This document shows, one piece after another, positions 14,765-62,948 of a stretch of 64,000 nucleotides of DNA (the first letter of the stretch is position 1; the number at the start of each line of letters is the position of its first letter). Source of the stretch: Liolophura sinensis (lineage: Eukaryota; Mollusca; Polyplacophora; Chitonida; Chitonidae); the NCBI RefSeq assembly GCF_032854445.1, contig NC_088300.1, forward strand, positions 58,192,984 to 58,256,983. Direction: 5' to 3'. A program made the translations under genes and the position numbers. The notes below the pieces were generated by a model. The model was not told the DNA's origin. It made no database searches and worked only from the letters and a program-made list of their open reading frames with translations.

Positions 14765-14794
<30 letters not shown>
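14765..14794. repeat. (AT)n microsatellite
   Basis: About 30 bp of pure alternating AT directly beside the 3' end of a minus-strand SINE. Confidence 0.95.
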
Positions 14795-14797
<3 letters not shown>

Positions 14798-14802
14798 AAT
14801 AT

Positions 14803-17585: not shown

Positions 17586-17600
17586 GTGAGCCGTAGCCCG

Positions 17601-23667: not shown

Positions 23668-23860
23668 ATGGAGTGGCATAACTGGTATGTGAGGCAGCGA
23701 CACAAGAGGGAGGGGCTTATCCCTCCCAGTGTCACATGGGACAGGCTGCCCAGTTTCTACGACAGACTTACGGAACTTGCCCAACACATCCCCTGGAAAC
23801 GCCGGCTTGTTCTTCACCTGTGTTTTCGTGGTATCCGAATTAAAATTGATTTGGGAGACG
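23668..23860 (+). CDS. OTULIN: OTULIN exon 1 (coding part): basic N-terminus
   Basis: Encodes residues 1-64 plus one base of codon 65 and ends at a strong donor (GACG|GTAAGTG). The first base (G) plus TT of the next exon makes Val65, so the phase fits exactly. The peptide is Trp/Arg/Lys-rich (for example PWKRRLVLHLCFRGIRIK) and leads straight into the membrane segment. I do not recognise a homologous domain; assignment rests on position, Kozak context, upstream in-frame stop and phase. Confidence 0.75.
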
Positions 23861-26800
23861 GTAAGTGCGTGGGAGTTCACCAGTTTTACATGATTTCAGC
23901 GTTGTCATTGTGTTTGAATACTGACGCCTGCAGCTGTTTATTGTAGTTTTGTAGCTACAAAATCCATATGCTGCCTCTGTATCTGTGTTGATACATGTAT
24001 GTTGATGGTGTGGAGGTATTTTGTGTTATCACAGCTGGAGGTCTACTGCTACACATACCTAGTCATTGATTAGTGTTCTAATTCTGGCATCCCAGGCCAG
24101 TGCAGCATGAGTGTGTCTGTAAGCAGTGCTACTCTGCATGACTGATTGTCTGTACAATGACTCCAGTTGTCAGAGGAAACAGTTTATGAGAAAACGTTGG
24201 TCTTTGGTGTTGCATAAATTTATTTCTCAGGAAGTAAGAACATCCCATCCCTGCTTATATTTACATATGTATGTGTTGATTAAAGCTTGTAAATCATTGT
24301 GCATATCTACATCATCCATATGTACTTGTAATCTTTATATAAATGGCATGGGATATAATTAAATGTGTAACAGTTAACCCTGAATGCTAAAATGTAAAAG
24401 TTTGTCCAAACAACTCGTGGAAAAAAAAACAAGCATCATGTATTTATAGATGGCAGGCAGTAGACCTGGACGAATTACATGAAGCCATATGGTTGTTAAT
24501 TGTTTTTTAGAAGACAACATATATGCAGGGCCTACAGTGTGAACATACACAGTTCCGTGTAATTATATTTTGAAATGTGCATGTGTATTCTACGTAGTTG
24601 GAGATGCATCTTCGTTATCTGCATGGAGGGCCTAGAAGAGGGTAATCTTGCAAATATCAGGTTCTGACTCAATCATACTTAAAAAAGAATTACTGCATGG
24701 GCTTATATGTATGTGCGCTGAACTGTATATTTTGTGTACAACATATGACTTGGTTTCAGTTATCGTTCTGACACATCTGTGTCTTAGAAAAATGCAGTGC
24801 ATGCTATTGTATAAAGATATGTGCTTCTGTTACTGAAATACTTGTAGGTTTAAAAATAAGCAAAGTCGAAAATGAACGAAAACTATTACATTATATTTCG
24901 TTGATCAGTTGATTTGCTTTGGTTGTAGAAAGTTTTGGAATATGTTTAAATGTGTGTATAGTGGCGTACATGTTAATCAGTCAGATTGTCTAATGTACAT
25001 ACAGGTATACTTTACTATATGTACATGTACATGGTTTGCGTCGGGTATGTATTTATTGTATTTTCACAGATATGTCCTTGTTGTATAACCAATCATGTTA
25101 TGCCATTTTGAATAAGCTGAATCAGCATTTTAGAACTTTTGCAAGTTCACATAGGTTTAGGCGAGATAAAGTGAGCGCTCTCGCAAACTAATACGGCTAA
25201 TAGATGTGATTTGACGGTAGCAATCAATGTCACCATTGAGCCAACAGGCCAGAGTATGTAAGATTAGCAACTGAAACCATGCATTAGTGTACAAGAGCCG
25301 GCACCTTGTCTCACCAAAATCTGTGGGATACTGCTGAAATGCTGATGGGCTTGTTGGAAAAGAAGCGATTTGTACATTTTGTTAACCTACTCATTCTGAG
25401 ATGAACTAAAGGAATTTATACAAGATGTGTAAATGTTCACTGTTTAATGCATATGTAAAATGATTCAAAATTCTAGAGGTAAGGAAATGTCATAGAATAC
25501 TTTATTTGGTGCTGAACTGTACTTAAACCATGCATGTTCCCAGGAGGATATAATCTTACCTTTCAAAGAAATCTAAAAAAAAAAACCTTCTGTGATCAGC
25601 TAAACTCTCAGCCAAAATAGACAACTTATTCATGATTAATCTTTATATACAACTGTAGCATCCTTCCTGGCCATGACATTGTGAGATCAGGCACTTTCAC
25701 CGTAGTGTGTCGCCCAGTGACTACTGAGGTTACACCTGTGAATTCATTTGTTTCTTTCTAAGGTGTGCCAGTGTAGAGAAGGAAGATAAAAAGAGGAGGT
25801 TTAGACTATCTTGAGTAAAGTAATTAAGATAAAACACTGAGAATAGTAACTAGTAAATTTACTCTCAGAATTATTCGCCTTCCAGTTACATCATCTAAGC
25901 ATTATCATGCACATAATATGAGCGCCATATTACCATGATCACAGGTAAAGTAGCCAAATGCAAACTTTGAATATGTGTATTTAAGAAATAATAATGTTTT
26001 TACTATGGGTGTCTAGTGGCATCCTCATCCACCTTATTGACTATAAAACTGCCTCTAGATACTCATAGCAGGGGGATTATTTCTATTCTGTAACAGACCG
26101 TTCCCAGTAGCACAGTTGGTAGAGCATCCGCTTCAAAGCGGTAGATCCAGGGTCCATCTTGGGTCGAGTCACACCTAAGACCTTAAAAGAGGAATTTGTA
26201 ACTTCTCATTTACCATGAAAGGGGTAGTGCAATGACTGGTTGACGCATATCAGTGTAGTGGCTTGGGCGGGGCAGCTTACTTGCCTTCATCTCAGTGAAG
26301 CAGCACTAGATAAAAGAGGGTGGAAAACCTGTCCTGCAACAAGGAGGCACATTACATGCGCTCTAAGGATTCCTTCGTCGTTATATGACTGAAAAATTGT
26401 AAAGTACCAAGTTAAACCCAAAGCACTCACTCACTCTGTTCGGTAACATGTTAAATAAGAATAAGTCAAGTCATGTCACGTCAACATTTTCACACTTGTA
26501 CAAAGTAGCATTGGAAGATGCCAGTATAGTTATTCTAAATAGTATCTGACCTCTTAACGCCATACACATTACAGTAGGTGAAACCATTGCTTCTAAACAA
26601 AAGTAAGACAAGCCTAGAAGGTCACTGATTTCACTGGTACTGGTGGGCTTGTAATCTTCGATAAAACAGTGCTTCCAGATGTTGTTTACATATTGTCTGC
26701 CACACACTGTTTAGTACATATGTTCGATGTTGCTGTCATGTTATTTACCGTCACAGGGAATTAAATACAAAGTTGCAAATCGTCCGCCATACTCTGGTTT

Positions 26801-29800
26801 TGTATGTTTAACCTTTCTATGTTGTCACAAAAGGATGCCGAGGATGGAATGAAATTAACGATGTCAAGTGAAGTTGTTCTGTTACACATAGCATGTGATA
26901 TCTATCCATTCATTTTTATCGATGAAAAGCACATCCTATTTTATAATAAGACTTGGCCATTCTATGTATGTCATCAGATGAGCGTTTAGCATGCACACCA
27001 AAGGGAGTAAAACATGAAATTTATACTCCTTTGATTGCCCCTCTTTTTATGTAATACCAAAACGGTAATTTTTAAATTACTCCTTCTTTGGAAACTGTTT
27101 TACAGACTGTTTTGAAAGAACAATACAAAAGGTAGTAGACTGCTGAAGTTTACCCTTGAGCGATTAATTAGTACGGAGGCTCTATGATCTAAAGGGATCC
27201 TTGCTACATGTGTATGGATTGTGTTGTTGTTGTACTGTCACTCATTTACTGATTTCCTTTAAATGCCACCCTACCCCCCCCCCCCCCCCCCCCCTTCAAA
27301 CTCATTCTCTGTATGTGTGTTCTCAGTCACATGCTAAGCTACATGTATTCATAAACACCTCCAAGCAGAGGTTTAGACATGATTTACTATTAAGGATGTC
27401 CTACAGGTGGTAGATGGGGCCTCCGTGGCTCAGTCGGTTAGCGCGCTAGCGCAGCGTAGTGACCCAGAAGCCTCTCACCAATGCAGTCGCTGTGAGTTCA
27501 AGACCAGCTCATGCTGGCTTCCTCTCCGGCCGTACGTGGGAAGGTCTGACAGCAGCCTGCAGATGGTCATGGGTTTCCCCTGGGCTGTGCCCGGTTTCCT
27601 CCCACCATAATGCTGGCCGCCGTCGTATAAGTGAAATATTCTCGAGTACGGCGTAAAACACCAATCAAATAAATAAATAAATAAATACAGGTGGTAGATT
27701 GTAAATTTTTAATATGTTTTTTGGATGAGTTTAAAAAAACATGATGAAGGCGAAATTCCCTATGGTAATTTTTGGATTCTTTTGCAGAAACAAAACAATA
27801 AAATGTTGGTCAGGCCTTTCTCAGAGTACTGGTTAACCTTCACAAGAGGCATAGTGCCAATATGTCAGCCTATGTGAATCAGTCAATAGCTAGCTAACAT
27901 CCTCCACTAACTGTGTAAACAGAAGGAAGAATTGTTTTGTAAAGGCCTCGATTTGTTACTCAGCAGCTGCTTGCCTACATGTAGTTTGTGAAACTGCCTG
28001 TCAGTTTTGTAATCGTGAGTATCACATTAAAATGTGATGGATTACAGTTATCTGAAAGTGTGCTTTGAAGAAGATTGAGTTGTGTGATTTAGTGCTGAAA
28101 AACCCTAGTTTTTGAGTTTGTGATATTCAGTACCTTCATTTTGAAAATAAAAAAAGTTGGCTTGGTTTGCAGACTTTACAATGAATCAGAAAGGAAGATT
28201 TTCTTTATTATCTCCACGTGCATGCATGGAGAACAAAGGCTTCAGAATTCATGTATCCAAGACAGCGTTCGGGCCAGGACAGCCCCGTCCGTGGTTGATG
28301 AAAGAGTTGTTCCTGTTTTATGTAACAATGTAAACAACAGAAGTTTGCTGTACTTATAGGACTAAGTTCAGGATACTTTGGTTGCTTTGAGTTCAAGTCC
28401 AGCTCGATCATGCTGGCCTCCTCTCCGGCCATACGTGGGAAGGTCGTCCAGCAGCATGCGGCGTGTCGTGGGTTTCCTCTGTACTCTGCCCGGTTTCCTC
28501 CGACCATAATGCTGGGCGCCGTTGTATAGGTGAAATATTCTTGAGTACGGTGTAAGACACCAATCAAATAAATAAATAAATATGTCTGAGTATATTTGCT
28601 TTTATTTAAATAATGTTTGCCATGGAGTGCTGACAATAGAGGAGTTTTTGAGTTTGAACTCTTTAATTGTTAAATGTAAAAACAGTCAAGATATATCACA
28701 TGACGTGAAAAATGTTTGGCAACTCTTGTTGACTATAATTTATTGGTCACTTATCTCTGTGTGTTCTAGAGGCACAAATGACACATCCTTCCTGTATAAA
28801 CTTCTTAAGTTCACAAATATTCAGCTCCTCAATTTTCCGCATTAAAAAACTTTCTATGACACTATGGTATAGTAAATATCACTAGTAAAAGTTGCCTAAC
28901 ATTTTTGACTTTGTTTACCTTTAGTAATAAAAGAATGTTAACTCGAAACACCTTATTTCTGGAAGGTACACGTATATGTATAAAGCGTTTTGCTTAAACA
29001 TTGTTTTCTGTTCACATTATCCTCTCACCAAGAGGGAGAGAGGGACAGAAATATTGAGTAGACCTAGCGAGGTGTTACATGTAAATACTTGTACACTGTG
29101 GGATGTATGTAAAGTGTTGTTTATGTATATTGAGAGATGAAGAGATCTTGTTGTATTAATAATGTATTAGTGATGTAGCAGTGGTGTGCTGACAGAGCTG
29201 GCCTAATCCTCTGACATTGACTGACTGGTATTTTGTACTTACATGTAGTCTGTGCTTGTGAAGGATCCTGCTGTTGGTTATGGGATATGCTGGTAAATCT
29301 GTCTGGCAATTCCTACCTGCAACATAATCAGTCCTTTTATCTGAAAGTGTTATTTATGTGCTTTATATTTGTCCACCACACATTTGTGTTGATTTCAACA
29401 TTTTTTTGGTTATTGTAAGATAATGGTCGGTTGGAGTGGGTCATGACCGAGTTGTTCAGATGGTTTGTATTTTCAATAGCCACAGAACACATGAGGTGTT
29501 GGCTTAATCAATCATACTTTGCGCAACTCAATAACCTAGGAGCCTCTCACCAATATGGTCACTGTGAGTTAAAATTCAGCTCTTGCTAACTTCCGCTCCG
29601 ATAGTATGCCAGAAGGTACCCCAGCAGCCTGCAGATGGTTATGGGTTTCCCTCTGGCAGAGTATCTCCCACCATAATGCTGGCCACCATCGTATGAGTGA
29701 AGTATTTTTGATGTATGTCCAACTACTTGCCAGAGGCTGGTGGTTTACTCCAGACACTCCAGTCATATATAAATTTAAATGCTCATTTAATAAGGTTCAA

Positions 29801-35800: not shown

Positions 35801-38800
35801 CATTTTCCATTTGACTTATTACATCATCACTGGGGTTAGGTATTTGTTAGCCTGTATCCTGCTTCTAGGTCAGGATTGGAGTCCTAGACATTAATTGTTG
35901 TGACAACCAGTACATGTGGTTTAGGTTTTATTTTCGCACAGTTTTTGTATGTGGAATATGCTGCTGTTGACAGGTAGGCTTATGGTTTCCAACGTTATCA
36001 TAGTACATGTATAACTGATTCAGGCAATTGTCAGTGACAGTCCATTGTAAAGTGCTACAAAATTTATATTGTACTGGTTTTCTTTAAAGGCAAAGGGCAT
36101 TTTTTTTTTTTTAAATGAACATGTGATTTTTTACTATTTGTTTCAGTTTATACACATGGGAATGGTTGTACAATACTGTTATTAAAATATATAATCAAAA
36201 ATGTATCAATCTTATCAACTGTTTGTATCTCTATACATTGTTTGTGCACATGTTCACCATGTGTTAATTTGTGAGAAGACAGCAGTAAACAGCCATCAAA
36301 TACATGGTACCAGAAGTACCAGTTGGTGCTTCTCTGATGATTTGGTGTATTTAGTAATAGTAAGACAGCGGTCACATGTTTTAAGGTGGCATCCTTGATT
36401 GTGAATATATGTATATACAACTACTGAAAAGGATAAAGTCCAGTTTTAGATAAGTGATTTTCATTGGGTTTTCCAGTGAGATATCATATATTTCTAATAA
36501 TTTTCTTTTTATAAAGTGAATCATGTTTATTTTCTTTCTTTCAGTTAAAGCAGCAGGGATTGTAGCTGTGCTTGGTTTGAGTTTTGGACTTGGTTCCTTG
36601 CTGTTGTATCGTCTCTACTATCGCTACGTTCACACAAAAGAGAGCATTAAGGCCCGGAAAGAGGATGAATTACAGAATGACGATGAATGCCACATTTATC
36701 TGGTAAGACACAAACATGTTGAACATTAAGAATGCCTCATGACATGTCCAGGCATTCACTGCTCGCATGACAGATAGGGATGCCGATGGGTGACAGAAAA
36801 AAACGAGACATAAATATTTGGATTCTCTGGTTATATTTAGTCAGACAATCAGTTTATATTTTCCATGTATATATGATTCCAGTCATTCCTATCAGCTTGA
36901 CAGTTTCTGTGGCTAAAAGGGAATCCATCATGTTTATTTTGAGGGCTGTCGTCATGATTGTGGGGATAATAATTTGTAACAACCCTGACTACGCTTCAGC
37001 TTGTCAGTTTGGTCGTACAGTGGAGGTGTATTGATCGAAGCACTATTAACTTTGCTATGTTCAGTGATATCACTGTAATCAGGGAGGGGTGTTAAAGCTT
37101 ATGTTATGCCAAAACCAGCAGCTGAAAAACATGCTTTGATTGAAAATAATACAGTAATCATAGAAAAAGCTTTTTCCTCATCAACTCAGTTTTTAGATGA
37201 GTGTGTTTCTTAACAATAACTTGTTGGTTTGCCAGATAACATACTTAGTACTCCCTGGGGTCTTCACTGTTTTTGTACAGTTGTGTTTTCTGTTCACTGG
37301 GTTCCATGACCCAATACTTTCGTCTGTTTGTTCCCTTATTAATACTCTTATTGTTACATGGTAAAACTCATGCAATTGCTTTTATTATCCTAGTGATTAA
37401 TTTTACTAGAAAATCTGTTTAATTTTCTAGGAATCAAAAGGTTTTTTAATACACCAAAAAACAATACATGTACATTTCTTTATAACAGAAGAATTATCCC
37501 CATCCCCCATATTTAAGAATGTACTTATTATGAGAGAAATCTTTTTTATTTTGATAAAAAAATGAAATTAAATTGTTAGAATATATATTTCTTATTGTCA
37601 TGGTTTTAGTTTACATATATTGATTCCTCATTTTGTATCCATTGAAGCGATCCAGACAGGTATAAATTGAGTCATTACCTTTTGGTTATGTTTGTGTATA
37701 TCTGTGAAGTTTTATATCTTTGTGTCATGTTTGTTCCAGAGGAATAGGAAATTTCAGCGTATTATTTATTGGAGATGATATCTCAGAGAGAACCAAACTG
37801 TAGTACACTGAGTTGTAAAGACTGTTTGTTTACAACATTCTAACTACACCTTTACATACAAATGTAAACTTCATGGTCCAGTGCCTGTGGTTTATGGGTC
37901 AGTCTTCTGAGGGTAGTATAAGAACTGTTTAAGTGCTAACTTGTGCTGAAGGTGACCTGCAGGAGGTCTAAGAGGTTTATGTGAAAGTTGTGTGTTGCGA
38001 CATGCTCGTAAGCCATGTACATGTGTACACAGTCTTCATGGACCAACAGCTTTTACATGTTCTTCCTTATAAACAGGCACATGTGAAAACATGATTTGAG
38101 TATGACTATTGACTGGTCATGCACATCAGAATCAGTCACTTTGTTACCTGAGAATTTCCATGAGTTGTGATTAGGTGTGTATATGTATATAATATACAAA
38201 CTAATTAAGTACATGTATATGTACCTATTCATGAAATTTGCTTATAAACTGTCAGTGTCAATTTCATATCCAAATATCCAGCAGACTATTTCTAAAATAT
38301 GAACAAAAGCCTGTACATGTAAATACTTGTTAATTGCATTGGTTTATTTTTTTTCGCTATGCTGTACTTCGGAGTATACATGTATGTGTGTGTATGCAAG
38401 ATGACAGCTTTTATAATATTTATGTATGAAAATCTGTTTATATTGATGTACTTTGTATTTAGTGTGGAAACAAAATGCACAGTTCTCTATTGAGTAAAGG
38501 TGGCACAAATAAGTAGAAATTCCTGCATGTGACATGTGGAGAACATGTACATATTTTCCATCAGGCTGTGTGTGGATAAATAAACATGACTTATATAAAT
38601 GTATATACCTATACTTGCACATGTAATAAGTGTGCAGGTTTATATATCTGTGTGATGTGAAGAGTGGACATTGATCAAAGACTTGTGACCAGCTGCTATC
38701 CCCTGCAGGACTTGCATAATGATCTCGTCACCTGGTTACAAGGGACAAAGGACCACTGGTCAGCTAGGTTAACGTGTAGTTAACTGAAAAAGAAATCTTT

Positions 38801-41800
38801 CTGTATTTATAATAAGCTAGTTCTACACAGGTATTCAATGACTGCAAGGAAGTACAGATCTGAGGTGACATCACTATAAGAAATATTCCATTGTTAACTC
38901 TAAGTCAGTGGACAGTGTATGTGAACACACTATTGTATGGGTATTAGTATGTAGTCAGCTTCTAGCATGTGTGAAAAGATGTCATTACATTGTGGATTAA
39001 TTTGGATGTTTATTGTAGACATCATATGATTAGGGGCTGTGTGACCTGAATATCACATCAAGTAGCAGGAAATACATGTGCAGTGGAACTGAGTGAGAGC
39101 TGATGTTCAGCCCTAGTTTTGGCAGTTGTGAGATAAAAGTGTCTCTCCTTGTGTGTGTGTGTGTGTATGGATTTAAGCCATGATGTAGACCAGCAGGGTT
39201 AAGAGAGGGGTTTTATGTCAGACCCCAGTGTACAGAGACATCTATACATGTAGGGGGTTAAAGCTGCTATAAACAGGGAGACATGTCCCTTAGGCTCTGA
39301 TGAGTGACACCCCATCTTCAGCTGCCTGTTTATATAGTAGGTATGTATTAGCATATACATGTAGATGTGACTGTCTTAAATCTACATGCAGTATAGACTC
39401 TTGTACATTTTGGATTTTCACTATCCAATTTAATGAGTATTATCTTAATACATGTACATGTATGTTTACTATGTATGTGCATTGGATGTGCATAAGCAAA
39501 CTGGCATTGACTTTGTATCTAAAGTGCTGTGTTTCTGTGTATTGTATGTTCTGCACTGCACATGTACTTATACAGAGTGGTTGTATCCAGGCATTGGGTC
39601 TGCGCTTTAGGGTATTTGGTCAGAGACAGTAATTAATTTAATTAATTGATAGTATAACTTTTCTGATATCTGGCTATTTATGATGAGATTCTGTGATATT
39701 TGCAAGTCACTATACAAAAGATACATGTATCTCATACGTACTGTTATGCATGAAGATCATTACTTCAAATTTCATTGCGTAAAAATGTAATCATCTAAGA
39801 TATATATGTCTACCTCAAAGCTGAATCAGCAGTATGGCCTTGGCTGAATGGTCCGTGTATGGTGGGCTGACCATGGTCAGATCCCGTTCGATTATACAGA
39901 CGTCATAAGCGTATGATCCCATCAGGATAGGCATATATAATTGTGCCTTTTGTTACAACATCCATGTTCTTAACATATAAACTAACTTGTACATATACCC
40001 ATTACTATGATGTTCTTCAGCCATGTCGGTATTTTCCAGTGGTTAAAAATTCATGAGTCTGTATGCCTGTAGAATTTGTCACTAAAAGACATTTGGTTTC
40101 GACCTCTGCCTATGTGCCCTGTGCAATGTCAGCATGTATCTATTTAGATATATTTGGATTACATTACCTTATGATGATGACAAAGCATCATTTGCCTTTG
40201 TTCCCAGTCTGCACTAGTGTGCATGTCTAAAAATCTATGTTGTATTATATATTGTGGGCATATGCATAATGTCACCAGAGAAGTTTCAAGAAGTAGGTTA
40301 CAAAGACCAGCGCAGACAGGCAAGGAAGAGAAAATACTTCTTGTGAATGTACGAAGACATGATGATTTTACTGTAAATAAGTCCGTAATGAACATCGACA
40401 CACCTTGATCAGGATGGCAGGATAATCCGACTGTGATGATATTGTGATGGGCCCACCATGGGCATAGGATATTGGGCTAGCATCTGGCTGTACTATACAT
40501 GAAAGGTGTTTATGCGTCATGCCTTGTACCTTTGTTTTTAGAAACTCTTCACAATGACGCTTTATCTGATATATAAAAATTTAAATAATTAGAAATGTAA
40601 TACTGGATTGGATCACCTTGTTTAATATTTGTTGTTGGCTAAACAGAAATGAATTCTGTGATTATTTTTACCTATTTTCTGTTTCTTTCAGGAGTCCACC
40701 GACGATAGCAGTCCTAGCAAGAGAGGTATGGGCAATGTCCAGTCTTCCCCAGGTGTTGTGGCCAGTGTCCACTACAGCCCAGCATATGGGGTGGCCATTG
40801 GCCCAAAGTACACCAACAACAATGGCCGGCCTCCCTGGGTGAGACAGCGTAAGCTGGGCAGTCCCAGTGAGAAGCAGACATGTCTTTCTGATCCACCAAA
40901 ATCTCGAGTGAAATCGTCTAGTGCTAATGCGGAGAAACAAGTCACTGATGGAGACAGTGACATAGGACTTCCATTTGAAGGTGCTGAGAAATGGTGTCAC
41001 GATGCCAGAACAGCCAAGTCACGGACTGCTCTGAGTCCCTCCCTAATTGTCAACTGTAGTCCCCAGTCTGTTCAGGAGAAACGCTTTCACTACAGTCAGT
41101 CTGATACGAAAGGCACAAGTGCACCTGGAGGTTATGGTATGGACAAGGACTCTGATGAAAACAAGCTACATATACGACTGTTACAGGACAGTAGTGTTTT
41201 GTTAACTCCCCCTGATGAGGATTGTGTCCCATATGTACGATCTGCCCCACACTCAGACCAGAACTCTGTCAATGAACAGTCTCTGCTGTTAGACTTCAGT
41301 CGTGAAGCCAGCCCGTATTCTGGTGAGGAGAACTCTTATGTTGAATCCCCTAGTCAGGCTGGATCATTCAGAAGCTCCAGTAAGATAAGTGAGTTTGATG
41401 AGAGTGAAGGAGAGTTTGGGGCAACTTCCCCACTACCGCGTCTCTCTAGCCTGGACAGAAGCTTTAAGCACAATCTGCTGAAACGTTTAACAGAGTGGAC
41501 GACTCTGTCCCATGAGCTGGGGTCTAAGTCTGGGTCTGGCTCTGGCTCTGGGTCCATCTCTCCTGATGTCAGATCCACCCCTGAGCGACGCATGAAGAGG
41601 AGTATTACCATTGGCAGCACGGGCAGCATGTCTGGTATCGAATCTCCAGTGACAGAGCTCGTTGGCGGAAATGATATCGGTTTACGGACTTCCAAAAATC
41701 TTGAGGATATTGAAGATGAGATTCACCAAATTTTCAGCGAATTTGATTACCTTAATTCTAAGCTGAGTGATTTGAAATCACGTAACAACACCTCAGGACG

Positions 41801-44800
41801 CATCGAGCCATTGGTGCCCGACGACCCTGAGATTATGGGCGAGATTCAGGACAATGTAGCATTGCAGGAAGAGATAAAGGAGGCGTATGAGCATTGGTGT
41901 CGGCAGGCCCAGGACCGTGGGCTGAGAGGCCAGAGCCTACCCCCGATTGACTCCAGTGGCCGACTTTCCTCCAGAGGGGCTAGCTTCATGGAAAGAGACT
42001 TGTCCTGGGATGCAGGCGACATCGCTGGCGATGGCTGCCTATTTGGGAAACACACCCCAAATCCCATGCCCTCTGTTTGGCTATCTAAAGACGGTGACAG
42101 TGTGGATGTTGTGAACACCCTCTCCACAATGGGAGAGGAGCTGGATGACCGTGAGTGGAAGCAGATAGAGGAGAGCACAACTCGTGGACAGGCTATGCAG
42201 CTGTCAGACAGTCGTAATACCAGTCGTAGCACAAGCCGTAAGGGCAGCATCAGCCCTGAGGACTCCAGCATTACCTATGATGCAGATGTATCTAGTGCTG
42301 ACTGGGACACTTCTTCAGAGGGTAAGTGATGAAGCGGACAAATACTAGACAGTTGATTGTATTATATTTAACTGTATGTGTGTTACATGCACAGTTACAT
42401 ACTGCAATATTCTGGTCAGCTTTGTAGTTCCTTAGGATTCTTTGTGGGTGTTTGAACTCTTGTATCTTAGTTAAAGCTACATACAATTTAACAATGTAAT
42501 TGACAATCATTGCATACATGTACATGTACATTTTTTAACTACATGTACATATGTTTGCTCGAATACTACAACATATTGGTTATGAAGATGCCCGTCTCAA
42601 AATTCATCAAATAGTCTGCTATAACAGTTGTTTAAAGCACTGTTATATTACAGGAGGTAACAGTCAACAGCTTGCAGAGCTTACAGATGGGAACTGTACA
42701 TTTAGTGTATGATAGATAGCAACAGTTATCTCCCTTAGAGACGGCAAGATTTTGAACTGTGGATGGATGTTACAGAGGGCAGAAAGATTTATGTGATTTA
42801 TTTAGTTATTTGGGCCAGAATTATGGTTTGAGGAAACTCATGGCCATCCATATGTTGCAGTCTGCCCTTCCCACACACATTGTGGACAGAAAGAAGGACA
42901 GTAGACTTCAGAAAGATGATGAAGTATTATCGCCCTGGCAGTAGCCTAAAGCCAATATTATAGAGGGAGATTACATGGATTATGGACTGACTCCTACTAC
43001 TTACTATACATACTTATATATTTACTGTTACTTCCCTGTGCCAGTAAATTGGTAAATTTAGTTTTTACTTGTTTTGAGATGAAAAACTATATTACCTGTA
43101 CATGCACATGTCTCGTTACTTTTTTGGAGAACATTCATTTTGTTTCCTCTTGAAATAGGTCTGTTGTATTTGAAGATTGTCTCTGTTTGATCTACTTATT
43201 TGTTTGTTTTTATACGTAGTCCTTGCTTGAGCAATATCAATGTATGGGAGTGTGGAAACTGGTGGTATCTTTTGAATATGTGTCACATCAAGTTATATTT
43301 TGTTACATGTATTACATTTCGTAAAGATGTCTTTGTGTATCAGTTTATTTACTTGTTAACTGCAGCATCATGTATTTCTGTTACAATTTGTTGAAAATTA
43401 ATATTGTAAAATTCTTGTAATGTTAATTTCAGCCCAAGGAGCTAGGACTCAAGAAACGAGCAAAAATCCCCCTATCCTCTCTGTAGGTGTGAAGATAGAT
43501 ATAATAAAGTACTCTGAGCAGGAATGGAAAGGGAAGACCCCAAAGTCTGAGGCTATCAGAAAGGTGAGGCTACACGGATATCCAGTACATGTATAAATGT
43601 AATTGTGGATCTATCAACAGCGATGTTGTTATCTGAATTACCTCCCTTGAATGACACTGCAATTGTTTGTGGGTCATGGAGGGGATTTGCTGAATAGGAA
43701 ATACTGCATTTGGCTGAAAGTCTGGCCTGTAAACATGCACTTTCAAAAGCACATAAAGGCCTTAAAATGATACATTTTAAATTTTTCTGATAAATAATTG
43801 ATCAAACGTCATAAATAAGTCACTCTGAAGAGACCCTGTAAGGGAGCTGAATCAATTAGAGTCAGGCAAAATGTGTCACGAGAAGAGAAGAGCTAAACTT
43901 GTGTTGAAATACAGTAACTTGTGCTTGAATAACTGATGGTGTGTGTGATATGCCAAGTGGGCTCATATCTATTGTTAGGAGCAGACTGAAAGTATGCAAT
44001 AGGTGATATCAAGGAAGACATTAAGGAATAGCACTGTAGCCCTCACTGGCCAAATTCTTTTCATTGGTTCAGATCAGACAAAACACCAATTACCAGAATA
44101 TGTAACTCAGCTACATGTAGTTCGTCATCTGGCTGTTACCACAAAAAGGCTCTACATCTGTCTGGCAAGAAGTGGGTTTCCGTTGGGTCTCTGCCAGGTT
44201 CTCTTCTCCAGAGAATTTACCCACTCTATTTTAAGTGTAACGTTTCTTGAATACTGTTGCTGCAACAGAGCTGAAATATTGCCAGTGGTGTGTTAAGCAA
44301 TAATCATTCATTCATTCATTCTGGAATACTGCTTACTACACCAAGCAAGTAAATATTTAGATGTTCATATCACATGACATAGGTTTGAATTGTTTTTTTT
44401 TTATGGAAACACATGTATTATATATTGTCATTAGCAGTGAAGAATCTGGCTAGCTCATAATAGTGATGCAAAGTGCCCATGAAATCCACATGGTGTGTAA
44501 TTGATGTCCTAGCCTTTAGTGTGTTTATCATTGACTGCCTGGTTGTCATATATAATCCCCCATCTAGTCACTATACATGTAAATGTACCACTGTGTGCTG
44601 TCTTCTGGGTAGAAGCTTCCAGTCATACATGTACATATGAAGATGGTGGAGACTAATATTGTACAAGTATCTAAATATCATACGTACATGGGAAGATCTT
44701 CCAGCAACCTGCGGATGGTCGTGGGTGTCCCCTGGCCTCTGCCCGAGATTCCGCCCATTATAATGTTGGCCAGCGTCGTATTAGTGAAATATTCTTGAGT

Positions 44801-47800
44801 ATGGCGTAAAACTCCATTTAAATAAATAAATAAATTACTAAATTGAATGTATCTAAATATGTTAAATCATGTTATCATGTAATTGTGGTTTACTTATGAA
44901 GTCAGACAAGCATGCTTTCATATTGAAGATATGTAGATGAGAACTATTCAAGTCTGTCAAAGAAAATTTTTTTTTTTTGATTTGATAACCTCTGTAACGT
45001 AGGATACATGTACTTTTCTTAAGGCACAACAAAAATGGAAAACTGTGCAAAAGGTAAGTCTTGACTAGGCAGGTTTTGGTATTTCTGTACATATCGAGCA
45101 CATCCTTAGTTGGAAAAGTGGGCTATACATCTAATTGTTAACTAGATCTTTGATGCAAACACGTGATCTTGGAAAATACCCCATTCTGGCAAAACTGCCT
45201 CTCTCAAAATGTAACATTACTGATCACAAGATCCGGTTCTTTTTCATACTCTGACCCACTTTTTTTTTTGCGGTAAAAGAAAACCCTTCCCCTCTTTGGT
45301 TGGGGGTGTCCTCTGTGCTTAATACCACAGGTGGTGACTTAGGCTGAAGCATGCAACACAACACCTGATATACACATATATAGCTAAAAACATTGTGTGT
45401 GTGCATAAAATACATTTTACATATTTATTTGTGTGCACATACAGGCATCATTTTTGAAGTATGAAAATGTCTTGGAGAAAATATTACCTTTCAAGGAGAG
45501 GCCTCATGGCATTGTGCTTTGTTACATTGCAAACACCATAAGTTACATGTACCCTTCATTCATACCTCTTTTTTAGTACTTGTCCTCTTCCCAATCTTAT
45601 GACAGACCTTTAAATGCTAGCAAACATGTGTTTTGGTCCCTAAAACTTTCTTGTAGTGTACAGGTAACTATAATAACCAGATTATTTCATCTGCAGGGTT
45701 ACCAAGAGGTGACAAGAAGGACTGGGCTCTCGTGTATGAGGATCGTCAGGGGAGATAACTATTGTGCAATACGTGCCTCATTGTTCCAGCTATTCAACCA
45801 GGGAATACCAGTCAGGCTGTCTCGTGAAAATGTCCTACAAAAAGTGAGTTTGCTTAAACAAAAGTTTGTTGTTTTTCTTGTTTGCTACATGTAATGTAGT
45901 TGTGAAGCAATACCCAGAGCAGGATGAAGTGATTAGGGATCTTTGCCTATCTTTATGCTGTGCTGTATTTCAGTATTTTTGCTGAATATTGTTCTAAGTT
46001 AGTAAATTTTTCCCTTTTCCATCTTCACACAAAGGGCCCTCTCTGGCTGATTCAACTAAAGTGCATGCCATAGCTTGTCAGCCATTGCTCCATGGTGATG
46101 GGGCTGTGTGATTTAACCCGTTTCTTCAGTTGTACATGTAGCTGTAAGTCAGGAGAGTTTTCAGATGACTGATGATGGGCTGTGGTGTCAATGCTCTTGC
46201 CATCGTAAACCTTACCACTGTTGTGCCATACTCTCAGATTAGCATTGAATCTGAATCTCAATTTAAATGAATGTGAACATGACACATCTCAGTGTTGTAC
46301 ACGTAAAATAGATATATGTATGTACATATACAAGATGTGTGTGTGTCAGATAACTTGGTATTCAATCTCAGTGTACATGTATGTTAATGTTATCAGATAA
46401 TCACCTAAGTTGGAAATGAAATTCATCTGAATATTGGGTACATTTGAGGGAGTTTTCAGAAAAAGCTTCTCTTCTTAAGTTATAAGGGAGGTAACTCCAC
46501 TATAAAAAGCTACAAATTATCTACCCATGAGATAAATACTGCTAACTGTCTTGGATGATATCCTTCAAGCTTAGTCCATGTGTACAGACACAATATTGCA
46601 TGCCTCTTGTTTTTGTGCTGAATTGCAGCTGAAGAAAATGGTGAATCAGAATACAGGCGGGATCAACAGCTGGAACTTTGCTAACAGAATTCCTGCAAGC
46701 AATAAATTGTTTGAAAAAATGTCTACTTGCATCCAGACATTTTTCAACAAGGTATGTGTTATGGTTTTTTTTTTAATCTAATCTTAAAACAGGGAATTGT
46801 AATACCCATACTTTCCCATATTACACAACACTGGATCATGGCTGCTTCAGATAAAAAAACAACACTACCTAGCTCTAACTTTTTGGATCCCACATCTTCC
46901 AGTTTTGAAAACACAGGGAAAAGTGATAGCTGCTATTCACAGTCCAAGGATGTATGAAGAAAATGTGCTGTTTTGACGCATTTTCCTCAAAGATAAAGAC
47001 CATATATAGAGTACCATGTGCCCTTTGACTATATAGGGTGGACAACCAAATCAGGCATTGTTATTTTTGTTCTTATATTTAGATATAATATTTAGATGTA
47101 AACCCAATTTAATGAACTGAATATTCATCTGTATTCATCAGTGCTCAAGTCAGTGTGTACGATGAATCTCTGGGCTAATGTGGCCTTCATCTCCCCCACC
47201 CCTCAGCCTCCTAAGCCCAAATAATAAGAGATAGCTATGAGCAAAGAAATACTGCAACATCAGTAAAGAGCATGTGTCGTGTTTTTTATGCCTTCAGTAG
47301 TCTGACAAATGCGAAGCAGTTATTTCTGTTACACTCTTCTGATTCTCCGTGGTTTAAGTAGCATTGCAGTCAACTGTACTGCTCCGTCAGCAGGGTCAGA
47401 GCTGTTTTTTTTAACACTAAAAGCCTTCCAAAAGGTCACAGAGATTTCATATGATAGATCAGTTTGAACATCTGCAGTAAAAAAAGTTCTAGAGCATTTG
47501 ACACTTATTTGATTTTACTGTTAAGTGTCATGACTTAGTTTCATAAATAATAAATTTTTTAGCGATTTTACCTGCGGTGATTTATTTCGCAAACATCTTG
47601 TTCATTAATAAAGGTTAATGTCTTTGTGTATTTTGCTAGAGTAGCTGCACTGGAGAGCAATTAGTTGTAAAACAATACGGCATCATATCACTTGCTTTAT
47701 GTTTATGTAATACTGTGAAGAGAAAGTTAACAGCGTAGTAATTTTGACATGGAAAAAAAAATCAACTGTGTTTTTCATACCATTTTCTGTTCATTACCTG

Positions 47801-56800: not shown

Positions 56801-59800
56801 TGAAACTTGAAATTAGCACGGCTAATAAATCATTTCATTTTTGAACCCCCCCTAGTGAAAAGCCTTAACAAATCTCTTCAGAAAACAAAAATAAATAAAA
56901 GAAAAATAGGCAGAAAGAAGCGTACATGTAGATGTGTTTGGCGCTTGCCATAATTTTAAATGTGAACTGTGGATTATTTGCAGGTGACAGAGTGTAGAGA
57001 AGAGGCTAGTGATGAGCAGAGAGAAGCCATGGTACTGAAGATGTTCAACTCAGGTGTAGAGGTGGACCTCCAGCTGATGGAGGCTGTCAAACTGCTGATG
57101 TTCATACAAGCAGTGGATCTCTACCGCGACAATGTGGAGGGCAACCAGGTTGCAACCTTTGTCTGGCTCCTGTTTGCTCGTGATACATCAGAGAACCCTC
57201 ATCTTCTCCTATCCAATCATATCAACACAATCGGGGACTCTGGAGGGCTTGAACAGGTACAGTGCAAAACAAGTCAATGTTGCATGTAGATCATGTAAAG
57301 AATGGGAAAGGTCAAGGTCACATGTAGGTCATGTAGACATGTAGTGGTGGTAGACAAGGTCATGTTATGGTGTGTTATTGTGGCATGTTCTATTGTTTGA
57401 CCACATACTGTTCATATTGCCCTTGTCAAATAGATACAGAATGAGACAAACAAGGTCATTGTCTTTGGGACAAACAAGGTCATGGTCTTTGGTGTCATCT
57501 TGCCTGTATGAATTGTCTCATGTTTGGTGAAGGAAAGATGAAAAAACTTTATTCAGTTAACATGGAACAATTTTCAAATCTCAGTATAAAGACGGTGCTT
57601 CACTACTCAGGAAAGTGGTGATGTGGAAGATAATACATGCACTAGACATATCAGAATCCCAAAATATAAATTTGTCCCTAAAAATATCAATAATATCTTC
57701 ATCTTCAGGAATGATGGGGAGGTTTGGATCTTACAAAGGCAAAGACTTGTCATATTAAAGTATGGTATAATATATACATTTTACATGTGGATGATGGAAA
57801 ACAAGACAAGGCATACATAGCCTAAAAACTTCAGACATCACTCTGGTGGTTTCAGGGTTTGTGAAAACATCAGACAAATTTTAGATATGTTGAGTTATTC
57901 AGTACACCAGTAACTGCATGTAAGTCTAGCTCTGTTGGAAGTTATCATTAAACATGGTTATGCAGAGTCTCTGTTGAACTCACCATGAAATCAGTATTTC
58001 AGTATATCCTGACAAAAAAAATTACATCTAACAGCTTTGTTTGTGTGAACACATACTTTGTATAACCATGTATTTCAGTATATCCTGACAAAAAAATTAC
58101 ATCTAACAGCTTTATTTGTGTGAACACATACTTTGTATGACCATGTATTTCAGTATATCCTGACAAAAAATTGCATCTAACAGCTTTATTTGTGTGAACA
58201 CATAATAACAATAAAAAAAGAAACCAAAAACTTTTTCATTTTAACAGATGTGCAACTGGAGGTAAAAGTACATTTAATTGGGGGGGGGGGGACCTCCGTG
58301 GCTTAGTTGGTTAGCATGCTTTATCTCAAGGATTATGGCTAAAGCAAACTACCCTTTAATAATTCTTCTAACTTTGGGAGATCTGGTCTGCTCTTTTGAA
58401 GCAGTATACATATAATTGTAACAGATATGTAGTTTGTCTTTTCTCACATGGTCAGACCATCTAATGAAAAATATAAACTTATCTTTACATAACACCCCCC
58501 CCCCCCAAAAGAAAATTGTTTTATGCTTTAAGCATTAATAATATAAAAATATTAGAAGAATTAGGAAGTTTTATGATGAAGTTTCATCTAGATGAGACAT
58601 CAGTGTAGACATAAATTAAGGATTTTCTCTCTCTGTGTCAGGACAGATATATCGTGGGATATTTATGGGTTGAAGGATATATATGTATGATTCTGTTAGT
58701 TCTAGGCAGATATTATTTCTTGGATTATTGTTGAAATAATGTCCTTCCTTGTTGGCATACCCTGCCTTCGACTGTGATGTGAGGTTTATTATTCATTAGA
58801 CACCTGTCACACTGTCTGAGAGTAGATGGAAAACTTATACCAGTATATTTTTTCTTGAAGAGAAAAAAAGCTGAAAAGTGAAGTAACCTTATGGATCATT
58901 GAAAATTATGCATTGAAATACATGTACTTCACAGAATAAAGATTTTTCTCATTTTTTAATAATTTTATACACAAGTATATATTATTATAGGGAACAGTGC
59001 ATAGTCATTCACACATACACATATTAGTATTTGGTTCAGTTCTTCAGTAATAATGGACATAAATACATGTATACAGGCCAAAGTAATGATAAACACACAC
59101 AAACTAACAAAGACAAATTTATGACTTAGTTTGCATGTATTCATATAATTATCTTATAATTATTATGTAGCTCTGCTCGGTTTCCTCCCACCATAATTCT
59201 GGCCGCCTGTCACGTAGGGGAAATATTCTTGAATACGGTGTGAAACACCAATCAAATAAATAAATATAATTATTATCTTATATGTTTATCACTCATCCAA
59301 TTTGACAGCATATTGTGTAAGATCAGGAACTCCCAAATTGAGTACCATAGTGTCATACCTGGGCATGTGTTAATCTACAAACTGCAGACTGAGCTTCTTT
59401 TCTGCTTTGAGAACAGGTGTTTCATGAAAATCTTATTTGCACTGTTTAATTCAAATGTCAGCATGAATTCGCCCTCAGAATTGATAAGCATGTACTTCGT
59501 GAATAGACATTGATTAGCTCAGCGGCAGCTGTGTTTATTGCATCCTCAGACAGTAACCCGCTTAACTCATTGCTGTTGCTTTGTCCTAAATAACTGAGAT
59601 ATCACACTAAGCATAATCAGGCACATTGAGAAAATTGAAAGAGTCACAGTTACAAGTTATATCTAAAACCCAAAAACACATTTGTTTCCTACTGATGTAA
59701 GGTATGACTGACAGTGCCCTCAGAAGAAATCCAGATTAAAAGCTAATTATTAGTTACCAACCAAATAGCTATATATGCTTTGCACCCCTCTTCCAAAATG

Positions 59801-60294
59801 ACTAAGGTCATATCATTTGCGTTTTCTGTAAATATGACTGATCAATTTTTGTGTGATCCATTTTGTTGCCCTAAGTTAAAGTTAGAAACCATCTTGGTCC
59901 ATGCGTATGTGTTGTATATTTATTGTGGGATATGCACTCCTGAAATTACATGGCTAAGTCCCTTCTTCTAAGGAGAAGGATCATATACGTGTAGGTGTAC
60001 ATTGCAGATTCTTGTAATTAGCATGTACATGTATGATATGCTGTATAATTATCAAAAGCGGGATTGGGTGACATTGATCTTTGATTGTATTAACTTTTTT
60101 TTTTTTTCCAGATTGAGATGTGCCTTTTAAGCTATACTCTGGGTGTTACTATTCAAGTGTTTCGATTGGCAGATTTTGGTAAGGCAGATTTTGAGGCAAC
60201 GTTTTCCGGCGAGGATGATCACAACAGTAACAAGACAACAACTTTGACCCTGTTAGCAGAGGATGATCGACATTACAACGTCTTGGTATCTTAG
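23668..60294 (+). CDS. OTULIN: OTULIN-family linear-ubiquitin deubiquitinase, membrane-anchored (8 coding exons)
   Basis: Join 23668-23860, 36545-36702, 40692-42321, 43433-43563, 45697-45843, 46629-46751, 56984-57256, 60112-60294: 2838 nt, 945 aa. All junctions are GT-AG and every phase agrees. Layout: basic N-terminus; one transmembrane segment (about 67-86); Ser-rich, mostly disordered region (118-660); OTU domain (about 680-945). Family landmarks are EVDIIRY/QEWKG-like DIIKYSEQEWKG (Trp692), RGDNYCAIRA with catalytic Cys727, and DDRHYN with His939 and Asn941; Cys-to-His spacing (212) fits human OTULIN (129 to 339). OTULIN hydrolyses Met1-linked ubiquitin chains and restrains LUBAC/NF-kB signalling. 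The anchor recalls vertebrate OTULINL, which sits on the ER but lacks the catalytic Cys. The protein ends HYNVLVS, without OTULIN's PDZ-binding tail. Start choice: strong context GCTGCCATGG and an in-frame TAG at 23647. The exon 1 join rests on phase and splice sites, so it is the least certain part. Confidence 0.92.
26103..26436 (+). mobile_element. SINE family A, near full length
   Basis: Starts with a tRNA-like head CCCAGTAGCACAGTTGGTAG (A box) and a degenerate B box near GGGTCCATCTTGGGTCGAG. It continues through the body, GCAGCACTAGATAAAAGAG and CATTACATGCG, to the ATATGACTGAAAAATTGT end and an (ACTC)n tail. Co-linear with the copy at 49478-49842. Confidence 0.87.
27274..27294. repeat. 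poly(C) run, 21 bp
   Basis: Uninterrupted C homopolymer; its length is prone to assembly error. Confidence 0.95.
27416..27685 (+). mobile_element. SINE family B, full length, with target-site duplication
   Basis: Complete copy: tRNA-like head CCTCCGTGGCTCAGTCGGTT (A box), a GAGTTCAAGACC B box, body GGCCGTACGTGGGAAGGTCT, GGTTTCCTCCCACCATAATG, GTGAAATATTCTCGAGTACG, GCGTAAAACACCAATCAAAT and an (AAAT)n tail. TACAGGTGGTAGAT is repeated exactly at both edges (27402-27415 and 27686-27699), a 14 bp target-site duplication. Open frames inside are non-coding artefacts. Confidence 0.95.
28381..28581 (+). mobile_element. SINE family B, 5'-truncated
   Basis: Starts at the B-box region (GAGTTCAAGTCCAGCTCGAT) and runs co-linearly to GAAATATTCTTGAGTACGG, CACCAATCAAAT and an (AAAT)n tail. 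The tRNA A box is absent. Confidence 0.9.
29536..29720 (+). mobile_element. SINE family B, truncated at both ends
   Basis: Recognisable blocks are GGAGCCTCTCACCAATATGG, GCAGCCTGCAGATGGTTATG and CCCACCATAATGCTGGCCAC. The (AAAT)n tail is lost or diverged. Confidence 0.82.
29868..30080 (+). mobile_element. SINE family B, diverged copy
   Basis: Blocks GCGCGCCAGCACAATGCAAT, GTCGCTGTGAGTTCAAGTCC, GCAACCTGCAGATGGTCGTG and GGGTTTCCTCCCACCATAAA are in family order. A C-rich insertion near 29908-29930 interrupts the head and the tail is missing. Confidence 0.8.
31015..31514. mobile_element. MITE-like element with 28 bp inverted termini
   Basis: The termini 31015-31042 and 31487-31514 are inverted copies matching at 24 of 28 positions. 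Each contains TGAATTACCTCCCTT preceded by AGGKCTGC. The element is exactly 500 bp, has no open frame worth calling, and its inner sequence is not palindromic. I see no clean target-site duplication, so a DNA-transposon origin is inference. Confidence 0.5.
34581..35028. repeat. 56 bp minisatellite, 8 copies
   Basis: Eight head-to-tail units start at 34581, 34637, 34693, 34749, 34805, 34861, 34917 and 34973, an exact 56 bp register. Each begins GATCATTTGGT and contains TTTGCCATGGGCACGGGCAG and CTAAT(A/G)ATGA. Copies differ by a few substitutions and no indels. Confidence 0.98.
36545..36702 (+). CDS. OTULIN: OTULIN exon 2: transmembrane anchor
   Basis: After a TTTCTTTCTTTCAG acceptor it encodes KAAGIVAVLGLSFGLGSLLL then YRLYYRYVH and a charged helix-like stretch, ending at CTG|GTAAGA. 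The roughly 20-residue hydrophobic run is flanked by positive charge on both sides, which suits a single-pass or signal-anchor segment; which face the OTU domain occupies is inference (cytosolic expected from substrate). Confidence 0.85.
36703..40691 (+). other. OTULIN intron 2 (4.0 kb)
   Basis: GT-AG intron with no repeat family copy I can name with confidence. It holds a short (GT)n near 39150 and several ACATGTA words. A faint tRNA-like sequence near 39835 was not called. Confidence 0.75.
40692..42321 (+). CDS. OTULIN: OTULIN exon 3: 543-codon Ser-rich linker
   Basis: One 1630-nt open exon bounded by TTTCTTTCAG and G|GTAAGTG. It is rich in Ser, Gly, Asp and Glu with many Ser-Pro sites, and has an SGSGSGS stretch near residue 400. 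Two more helical, charged segments stand out: about 451-480 (LEDIEDEIHQIFSEFDYLNS...) and about 495-530 (IMGEIQDNVALQEEIKEAYE...). I recognise no folded domain. Human OTULIN has only about 80 residues ahead of its OTU domain, so this is a very large addition. An internal Met130 in good context begins MGNVQSS. Confidence 0.92.
42322..43432 (+). other. OTULIN intron 3 (1.1 kb)
   Basis: GT-AG intron. It contains a short inverted pair of the ggaggtaac/gttatctccc word (about 42650-42736) and tandem ACATGTAC palindromes near 42514-42550; otherwise nothing recognisable. Confidence 0.75.
43433..43563 (+). CDS. OTULIN: OTULIN exon 4: start of OTU domain
   Basis: Completes Ala661 and encodes residues 662-704. 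The segment VKIDIIKYSEQEWKGKTPKS matches the first helix of OTULIN; Trp692 corresponds by alignment to human Trp96, a residue of the ubiquitin-binding surface. Ends AAG|GTGAGG in phase 0. Confidence 0.95.
44271..44321 (+). repeat. possible SINE tail of a third type
   Basis: CTGAAATATTGCC, then GTTAAGCAATAATCATTC and an (ATTC)n run. It resembles molluscan SINE 3' ends I recall, but no head or body is convincing upstream. Confidence 0.35.
44679..44848 (+). mobile_element. SINE family B, 5'-truncated, with target-site duplication
   Basis: Starts inside the body (CATACGTACATGGGAAGATC) and runs through GCGGATGGTCGTGGGTGTCC to GAAATATTCTTGAGTATGG and an (AAAT)n tail followed by about 17 AT-rich bases. 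GTATCTAAATAT is exactly repeated at 44667-44678 and 44849-44860, consistent with a 12 bp target-site duplication. Confidence 0.85.
45697..45843 (+). CDS. OTULIN: OTULIN exon 5: catalytic Cys loop
   Basis: Encodes residues 705-753, beginning GYQEVTRRTG and containing VRGDNYCAIRASLFQLF. Cys727 occupies the catalytic position (human Cys129); in OTULINL this position is not Cys. Bounded by CATCTGCAG and GTGAGT, phase 0 both sides. Confidence 0.97.
46629..46751 (+). CDS. OTULIN: OTULIN exon 6
   Basis: Encodes residues 754-794 (LKKMVNQNTGGINSWNF... to ...TFFNK). Phase 0 on both sides between ATTGCAG and GTATGT. It corresponds to the middle helical part of the OTU fold. Confidence 0.92.
47803..47985 (+). 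mobile_element. SINE family B, diverged, 3' end lost
   Basis: Blocks TTAGCATGCTAGTGTGGCTC, CCAGGAGCCTCTCACC, GGGGAGGTCTTCCAGCAACC and CACCATAATGCTGGCCACTG are in family order. After TGTATAAGTGAA the family sequence stops and a foldback begins. Confidence 0.8.
47987..48084. repeat. foldback: 20 bp inverted repeat around a 58 bp centre
   Basis: ATAGGTTATTGAATGAATAC at 47987-48006 is inverted at 48065-48084 with one mismatch (19/20). It sits where a family B SINE breaks off. Confidence 0.85.
49478..49842 (-). mobile_element. SINE family A, full length, with target-site duplication
   Basis: Minus-strand copy with a complete tRNA-like head (GGCCCGGATAGCACAGTTGG A box, B box near GGATCAATCC), a body with GTTCAGCATAAAGGGGACAG, a CTTGCCTTCGGTAAGTCGTC block, GGTGGAAATCCGTCCTGCAA, CATATGACTGAAAAATTGTT, GAGTACGACGTTAAACCCCA and a (CACT)n tail. 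CTACATGGATTGGA is exactly repeated at 49464-49477 and 49843-49856, a 14 bp target-site duplication. It is the best reference copy of family A here. Confidence 0.95.
52169..52831 (-). pseudogene. LINE C-terminal segment
   Basis: An open stretch of 220 codons, with FFHKIVNGLSPPYLKTLL, NLRNRHHF, FNKTTKEWNSLPG and, further on, a KCKNAPHYFLDC-type Cys/His pattern. This is the region following the reverse transcriptase in many jockey/CR1-group elements. The frame actually continues upstream of the first Met (ELKWEPLYSRCRSKRI), so that Met is not a true start. Confidence 0.8.
53277..53801 (-). pseudogene. LINE reverse transcriptase core
   Basis: Visible motifs in order: NSGFKHGDSTVCQLT, LFLDVSKAFDKVWHDGLL, YAGVPQGSVLGPLLFL and the catalytic FADDTSL. 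It ends at a TAG stop just after DLERLSN where homologous sequence (SFNATKT) continues beyond, so the domain is interrupted. Confidence 0.92.
53898..54197 (-). pseudogene. LINE region between endonuclease and RT core
   Basis: Encodes ANEFCKFFASQSAP, then EASGTDGINSFLFKNSAD and SLRTAVFPA, the usual segment ahead of RT motif 1 in this group. It ends at a TAG, beyond which homologous sequence resumes (KLSQVCPVFKKADRHD, SHYRPVSLQPSLSKVLE). Confidence 0.85.
54441..55322 (-). pseudogene. LINE AP-like endonuclease
   Basis: 293 open codons. Motifs: ICVSETWL, NRHGGGAEIYC, MIMGGFNDRCLHWD-type block and MANLDHCVIY. The usual GDFN is GGFN and the usual SDH is LDH, so key catalytic positions are lost. 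Homology extends upstream of the first Met (HFNARSL near 55400), so the Met is not a true start. Confidence 0.88.
56074..56311 (+). mobile_element. SINE family A, worn copy without head or tail
   Basis: Blocks CCTTAAAACAGGAAGTTGTA, GCAATGACTTTTTGACCCAT, TCAGTGAAGCAACACTAGAT and AAAAATTGTTAAGTACGAC are in family order. The tRNA-like head and the (ACTC)n tail are absent. Confidence 0.8.
56984..57256 (+). CDS. OTULIN: OTULIN exon 7: central OTU domain
   Basis: Encodes residues 795-885 after ATTTGCAG and before GTACAG. The conserved block GVEVDLQLMEAVKLLMFIQA, followed by LLFARDTSENPHLLLSNHIN and GGLEQ, aligns without gaps in my reading to vertebrate OTULIN/OTULINL. Confidence 0.96.
57995..58203. 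repeat. 75-76 bp tandem repeat, about 2.7 copies
   Basis: Units begin TATTTCAGTATATCCTGAC at 57995, 58071 and 58146; the last is partial. The shared body includes ATCTAACAGCTTT and TGTGTGAACACATA. Length differences lie in the internal A-run. Confidence 0.95.
58291..58320 (+). repeat. SINE family B head fragment
   Basis: GACCTCCGTGGCTTAGTTGG then TTAGCATGCT matches the tRNA-like head of family B and stops there. It is preceded by a poly(G) run. Confidence 0.6.
59167..59264 (+). mobile_element. SINE family B, 3' third only, with target-site duplication
   Basis: Runs from CTCTGCTCGGTTTCCTCCCA through GAAATATTCTTGAATACGG to AACACCAATCAAATAAATAA. TATAATTATTAT occurs exactly at 59155-59166 and 59265-59276, a 12 bp target-site duplication, so this is a 5'-truncated insertion rather than a decayed longer one. 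Confidence 0.85.
60112..60294 (+). CDS. OTULIN: OTULIN exon 8: catalytic His/Asn and C-terminus
   Basis: Follows a long T-tract acceptor. Encodes residues 886-945, IEMCLLSYTLGVTIQVFRLA to DDRHYNVLVS, with His939 and Asn941 of the catalytic triad, and stops at TAG 60292-60294. It ends four residues after Asn941, shorter than human OTULIN, which continues to a PDZ-binding ETSL. Confidence 0.96.
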   Translation: MEMCLLSYTLGVTIQVFRLADFGKADFEATFSGEDDHNSNKTTTLTLLAEDDRHYNVLVS

Positions 60295-62748: not shown

Positions 62749-62948
62749 NNNNNNNNNNNNNNNNNNNNNNNNNNNNNNNNNNNNNNNNNNNNNNNNNNNN
62801 NNNNNNNNNNNNNNNNNNNNNNNNNNNNNNNNNNNNNNNNNNNNNNNNNNNNNNNNNNNNNNNNNNNNNNNNNNNNNNNNNNNNNNNNNNNNNNNNNNNN
62901 NNNNNNNNNNNNNNNNNNNNNNNNNNNNNNNNNNNNNNNNNNNNNNNN
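62749..62948. other. assembly gap (200 N)
   Basis: Exactly 200 N, a typical fixed-size scaffold gap; the real distance is unknown. Confidence 0.99.

Follow-up and report, generated by a model that had tools for sequence, protein, structure and literature searches.

Within the window, by which we mean the whole 64,000-nt stretch of Liolophura sinensis DNA that was analysed (contig NC_088300.1), one gene appears to join a membrane segment to an OTULIN-type deubiquitinase domain. This raises the question of whether the two parts truly belong to a single protein, and if so, which known member of the family that protein resembles and where in the cell it would act. The original prediction placed the gene at 23668-60294, and these coordinates matched exactly, the ATG lying at 23668 within the sequence GCCATGG and the TAG stop codon ending at 60294. 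Scripted assembly of eight exons gave a spliced frame of 945 residues in which all phases agree and all seven introns are of the GT-AG type:

23668..23860, plus strand: exon 1, aa 1-64; ATG within a strong Kozak context and basic N-terminal segment, ending in phase 1
36545..36702, plus strand: exon 2, aa 65-117; the one hydrophobic stretch (aa 67-86), with a basic flank on its C-terminal side
40692..42321, plus strand: exon 3, aa 118-660; long linker rich in Ser, Asp, Gly and Glu
43433..43563, plus strand: exon 4, aa 661-704; opens the OTU domain, with Tyr687 equivalent to OTULIN Tyr91 and Trp692 to Trp96
45697..45843, plus strand: exon 5, aa 705-753; catalytic Cys727 in a GDNYC motif
46629..46751, plus strand: exon 6, aa 754-794; part of the OTU domain with weak conservation, found by exon enumeration and aligned to OTULIN
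56984..57256, plus strand: exon 7, aa 795-885; OTU core
60112..60294, plus strand: exon 8, aa 886-945 plus the stop codon; Asp936, His939 and Asn941 in an AEDDRHYN motif

Exons 4-8 are linked by the OTU domain that they share, and exon 3 by phase. The proposal that a hydrophobic segment (around residues 67-86) and an OTU domain with Cys727, His939 and Asn941 are joined in one spliced frame was thus borne out, with the residue numbering as given. We regard the gene model, as predicted by splice logic, as very probably correct.

Several other elements lie in the window. The 3′ part of a Ras-family gene (Pfam Ras; nearest solved structure RERG, 2atv, 9.4e-35) is found upstream on the same strand at 13116-13577 (+). 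Intron 1 holds a tandem array with a 56-nt period at 34524-35083, the registers of which are 74-92% identical to a reference copy, and a predicted tRNA-Gly (ccc) at 24060-24145 (+). This prediction may be a tRNA-derived repeat, as may that of a tRNA-Gln (ttg) at 17600-17672 (-). Intron 6 contains a non-LTR retrotransposon-like stretch at 52169-55322 (-), made up of separate ORFs that include a reverse transcriptase (53277-53897; 2.2e-28) and an endonuclease-like piece scoring below the Pfam cut-off (54441-55322). A run of 200 N at 62749-62948 is probably an assembly gap. Two families of dispersed repeats were also recorded:

27574-27687, 28473-28586, 29640-29701, 30025-30086, 44727-44840, 47919-47980 and 59160-59274: SINE-like dispersed repeat
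17103-17316, 26139-26436, 49480-49799 and 56135-56269, in both orientations: second repeat family, pieces 79-91% alike

A 62-nt core of the SINE-like repeat was seen seven times; some copies end in AAATAAATAAATA, and inverted copies lie near 14769-15031.

The join of exons 1, 2 and 3 is predicted by splice logic and is very likely. Splice sites were scored with approximate matrices. We searched for open exons of 60-450 nt, entered in phase 1 and left in phase 0, with both sites at least as strong as those of exon 2 itself. Exon 2 was the only such candidate in 23861-40691 (one on the forward strand, none on the reverse), and no candidate of this type arose in 60 resamples drawn from a first-order Markov model. 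With the demand on both sites lowered by 3 bits, two candidates appeared, one of them exon 2, while the unrelaxed search over the entire forward window also yielded two, the second lying within exon 4. For the first exon, ATG-to-donor candidates of 60-450 nt that end in phase 1 and whose donor scores no less than 6 bits were sought in 13600-36540, and exon 1 was the sole candidate with or without a Kozak requirement.

These results bear on a simpler reading, namely that the gene encodes an ordinary soluble invertebrate OTULIN, exons 1-2 being an erroneous or little-used 5′ end while the principal transcript begins closer to exon 3. Such a reading would be favoured by the length of introns 1 and 2 (12.7 and 4.0 kb), and by the isoforms of the C. 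elegans mitochondrial transport factor RIC-7 (F58E10.1), which are described as differing in their first exon (PMC3261915). Codon usage, scored with exons 3-8 as training set, points the same way: exons 1 and 2 were not marked as coding, equally high scores being reached by 80/1986 open intronic segments for exon 1 and by 392/3567 for exon 2. This test is, however, a weak one, because exons 5 and 6, which are secured by the domain and belong to the training set, also scored near zero. Against the soluble reading, the splice sites of exons 1-2 are strong and in phase, each of the two exons is the only candidate of its kind in the region searched, and intron 2 contains no Kozak-context first exon (donor at least 5 bits) that could be joined to exon 3 in phase 0. 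We therefore consider a soluble product as the main product improbable, though a soluble isoform may occur.

The OTU domain is complete. It matched Pfam Peptidase_C101 (PF16218) at E 1.6e-81 over aa 677-944, covering profile positions 2-265 of 265 and scoring 274.1 bits against a curated cut-off of 27. PDB matches with E up to 1 comprised only OTULIN (9 distinct chains, best 3.5e-52) and OTULINL (1 chain, 1.1e-46). As judged by the full-length profile match and the intact triad, the protein is a member of the OTULIN subfamily. A comparison of the spliced OTU domain with viral and genome contig collections returned 6 and 39 peptide-pattern matches, respectively, and no relatives among them.

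Alignment to human OTULIN (FAM105B) paired Cys727, His939, Asn941, Asp936 and Tyr687 with Cys129, His339, Asn341, Asp336 and Tyr91. The last two OTULIN residues take part in auto-inhibition and in coordination of Asn341 in the substrate-assisted mechanism of Met1 cleavage, according to PMC3690481. Overall, 17 of 22 listed OTULIN positions were identical in the chiton protein, the differences being at 152, 174, 245, 313 and 314. Disease mutations of OTULIN are reported at Gly174, Tyr244, Leu272 and Gly281 (PMC7862380); three of these four residues are kept, the exception being 174, which is Ala at a place where the alignment is loose. The domain would probably be an active Met1 deubiquitinase. 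Human OTULIN differs from the chiton protein in being cytoplasmic and 352 aa long. Motifs for PUB interaction and for PDZ binding are also described in it (PMC7862380), whereas the chiton chain stops right at the end of the OTU domain, with the C-terminus HYNVLVS, and therefore has no PDZ-binding tail. One simple PIM-like pattern had no match in the spliced protein; a diverged motif may be present.

Human OTULINL (FAM105A) offers the second obvious comparison, since it combines an N-terminal membrane segment with an OTULIN-type OTU domain. In a three-way alignment, the chiton domain was identical to OTULIN at 102/267 positions and to OTULINL at 90/262, and the two human proteins were identical to each other at 110/260. 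All three agreed at 63 columns, and at 47 columns OTULIN and OTULINL agreed against the chiton protein. Where the human paralogues differ, the chiton residue was that of OTULIN at 35 columns, that of OTULINL at 27 and neither at 86. OTULINL lacks the triad, having Asp139, His350 and His352 (PMC7862380), and so carries Asp where the chiton protein keeps Cys727. These figures are consistent with a chiton gene that branched before the OTULIN/OTULINL duplication, as far as three sequences, which cannot be rooted, allow. The duplication itself has been published, as has the presence in Ciona of a single OTULIN that is active (PMC4765238).

Such counts would suit a protein that is simply a pre-duplication OTULIN, bearing the ancestor of the OTULINL anchor and residing at the ER in a function unrelated to RIC-7. 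In favour of this possibility, the hydrophobic segment and the intact triad share one frame, and the distances to both paralogues are similar, with the 47 columns common to the paralogues set apart from the chiton protein. In addition, the N-terminus of OTULINL is reported to direct membrane binding, and the protein to be found at an ER-like membrane (PMC7862380). The unrootable comparison counts against it.

The best 19-residue hydropathy window of the chiton protein spans aa 67-85 (Kyte-Doolittle 2.14), and the best window outside aa 56-90 reaches 1.28, within the OTU domain. The hydrophobic segment is very probably a membrane anchor, judging by these values. The first 124 residues gave no match in NCBIfam (E up to 1) or in the PDB (E up to 10).

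For OTULINL, an assumed N-terminus of 95 residues was joined, with an overlap of five residues, to an assumed domain sequence. The domain so assembled agreed with the solved chain at 265/266 residues, and the join placed the Asp that replaces Cys at residue 139, matching the published position (PMC7862380). Aligned to this N-terminus, aa 1-117 of the chiton protein scored 28, a score reached by 317, 309 and 335 of 1000 shuffles in three controls. The distance from the hydrophobic segment to the OTU domain is about 590 residues in the chiton protein versus about 30 in OTULINL, as measured on the assumed N-terminus. With no detectable N-terminal similarity and a much longer spacing, the term OTULINL-like, which the original prediction applied to the anchor, therefore says no more than that a hydrophobic segment is present. 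Its broader suggestion, that the gene may keep the pre-duplication state as a membrane-tethered Met1 deubiquitinase, is supported as regards the intact site and the hydrophobic segment, and the distances to the paralogues are consistent with it; the OTULINL likeness of the anchor found no support in the sequence. Short membrane anchors diverge fast, so a common origin of the two may still be envisaged.

Hydrophobicity was also considered as a guide to the organelle. A review states that most mitochondrial signal anchors lie below 0.4 on the Wimley-White scale and have at least three basic residues after the segment (PMC4010795). The chiton segment gave 0.42, 0.34 and 0.38 for lengths of 17, 19 and 21, and the 15 residues following it include four K/R and one D/E. 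The corresponding OTULINL values were 0.50, 0.38 and 0.40. We set this call aside, as the chiton value is borderline and the rule fails to separate the chiton protein from OTULINL at its ER-like membrane. The rule is thus compatible with a mitochondrial location, for which the moderate hydrophobicity and the basic flank speak, and also with the ER, the latter being a further point for an ER-bound pre-duplication OTULIN.

A different likeness emerged from RIC-7. According to PMC10369933, residues 1-99 of RIC-7b are ordered and on their own colocalise with mitochondria, residues 100-470 are largely disordered, and residues 471-709 resemble the OTU domain of human OTULIN by HHpred and Dali, OTULINL and OTULIN being the top two human matches of this C-terminal domain. 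Compared by such descriptions of layout, the chiton protein has the same order of parts: a putative targeting region at the N-terminus (1-117), an extended middle predicted to be disordered (118-660), and the OTULIN-type domain at the C-terminus (661-945). It differs in being longer (945 versus 709 aa) and in having an OTU domain that is readily recognised by sequence. The available text of PMC3261915 does not use the word 'transmembrane', and that of PMC10369933 uses it twice, for Miro and TOMM-20 only; 'catalytic' and 'deubiquit' are absent from the latter, so far as it was available.

The chiton middle part, the linker, is 543 residues long and contains no Pfam family above cut-off. When aa 101-700 were cut into 12 blocks of 50 residues, ten were called disordered by a crude charge-hydropathy index, an index that is only rough because it also returned disorder for two of the five OTU blocks and for aa 1-50. 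The kinesin light-chain W-acidic motif was sought in the linker and discarded: the strict pattern had no match and the relaxed pattern one, a count reached in 273/5000 shuffles.

On this analogy, RIC-7 appears to fit the layout of the chiton protein better than OTULINL does. This better fit, together with the N-terminus lacking detectable similarity to that assumed for OTULINL and the disparity in spacing, argues against the pre-duplication ER protein described above, which we judge unlikely, though well worth keeping in mind. We propose common descent with RIC-7, and the chiton gene may, with slightly better than even odds, be its orthologue. Published accounts, as far as available, describe RIC-7 orthologues found by sequence in nematodes only (PMC3261915), no homologues identified in mammals or Drosophila (PMC12646758), and no OTULIN detected in C. 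elegans (PMC3690481).

The OTU domain of RIC-7 is reported to be largely dispensable for its role in mitochondrial transport, and ric-7 mutants are reported not to be rescued by human OTULIN or OTULINL (PMC10369933). Dispensability would be in keeping with a pseudo-enzyme scaffold, in which the chiton OTU domain, as in OTULINL, is kept for binding only and catalysis is unused. In that case, retention of the whole triad and of the equivalents of Asp336 and Tyr91 would be unexpected in the absence of selection for catalysis, and we consider such a scaffold very improbable. Given the two RIC-7 observations, transport and deubiquitination would be separable functions in the mechanism that we propose.

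Taken together, our preferred reading, held with slightly more confidence than doubt, is a membrane-anchored deubiquitinase of the OTULIN subfamily with the layout of RIC-7, perhaps located at the mitochondrial outer membrane. Weighing against it are the undistinctive codon usage of exons 1 and 2, a hydrophobicity rule that suits OTULINL as well, the disorder scored over aa 1-50, the five differing OTULIN positions, a kinesin motif count no better than chance, the silence of the RIC-7 texts on a transmembrane segment and on catalysis, and the two RIC-7 observations just given. In this mechanism, the N-terminal part would insert into a membrane, which would most likely be the outer one of mitochondria, so that the linker and the OTU domain would face the cytosol. 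As a flexible arm, the linker would allow the OTU domain to reach distant substrates or partners, and the domain would cleave Met1-linked ubiquitin near the membrane by the substrate-assisted mechanism of OTULIN. The mitochondrial location, taken by analogy from RIC-7, stands at about even chances. A review describes recruitment of LUBAC to mitochondria by Parkin for the attachment of linear chains to MAVS (PMC10562472).

A wider reading, which we put forward tentatively, is that RIC-7 and OTULIN form one family, and that the ancestral animal OTULIN was a Met1-deubiquitinase of the mitochondrial outer membrane with a long disordered arm that also took part in kinesin-driven transport of mitochondria, from which the lineages then diverged. 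Nematodes would have kept transport while the enzyme drifted. Vertebrates would have split the gene into a soluble, active OTULIN and a membrane-bound, inactive OTULINL, and the chiton would still combine the anchor and the arm with an active enzyme.

That RIC-7 has an OTULIN-like fold is already published (PMC10369933). A membrane-anchored, catalytically intact OTULIN with the RIC-7 layout was not found among the open-licence literature matches listed, and sequence databases may well contain relatives of the chiton protein that have gone unremarked. Apart from kinesin-1, RIC-7 is said to be the sole single gene of this kind reported to date in the localisation of mitochondria (PMC10369933). 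If the shared layout reflects descent, the chiton gene links RIC-7 to the OTULIN enzymes, and an OTULIN recognisable by sequence with the layout of RIC-7 would turn a likeness of fold into a testable family history. It would suggest that editing of linear ubiquitin at mitochondria was an early role of OTULIN, and would make the search for a mammalian counterpart of RIC-7 concrete.
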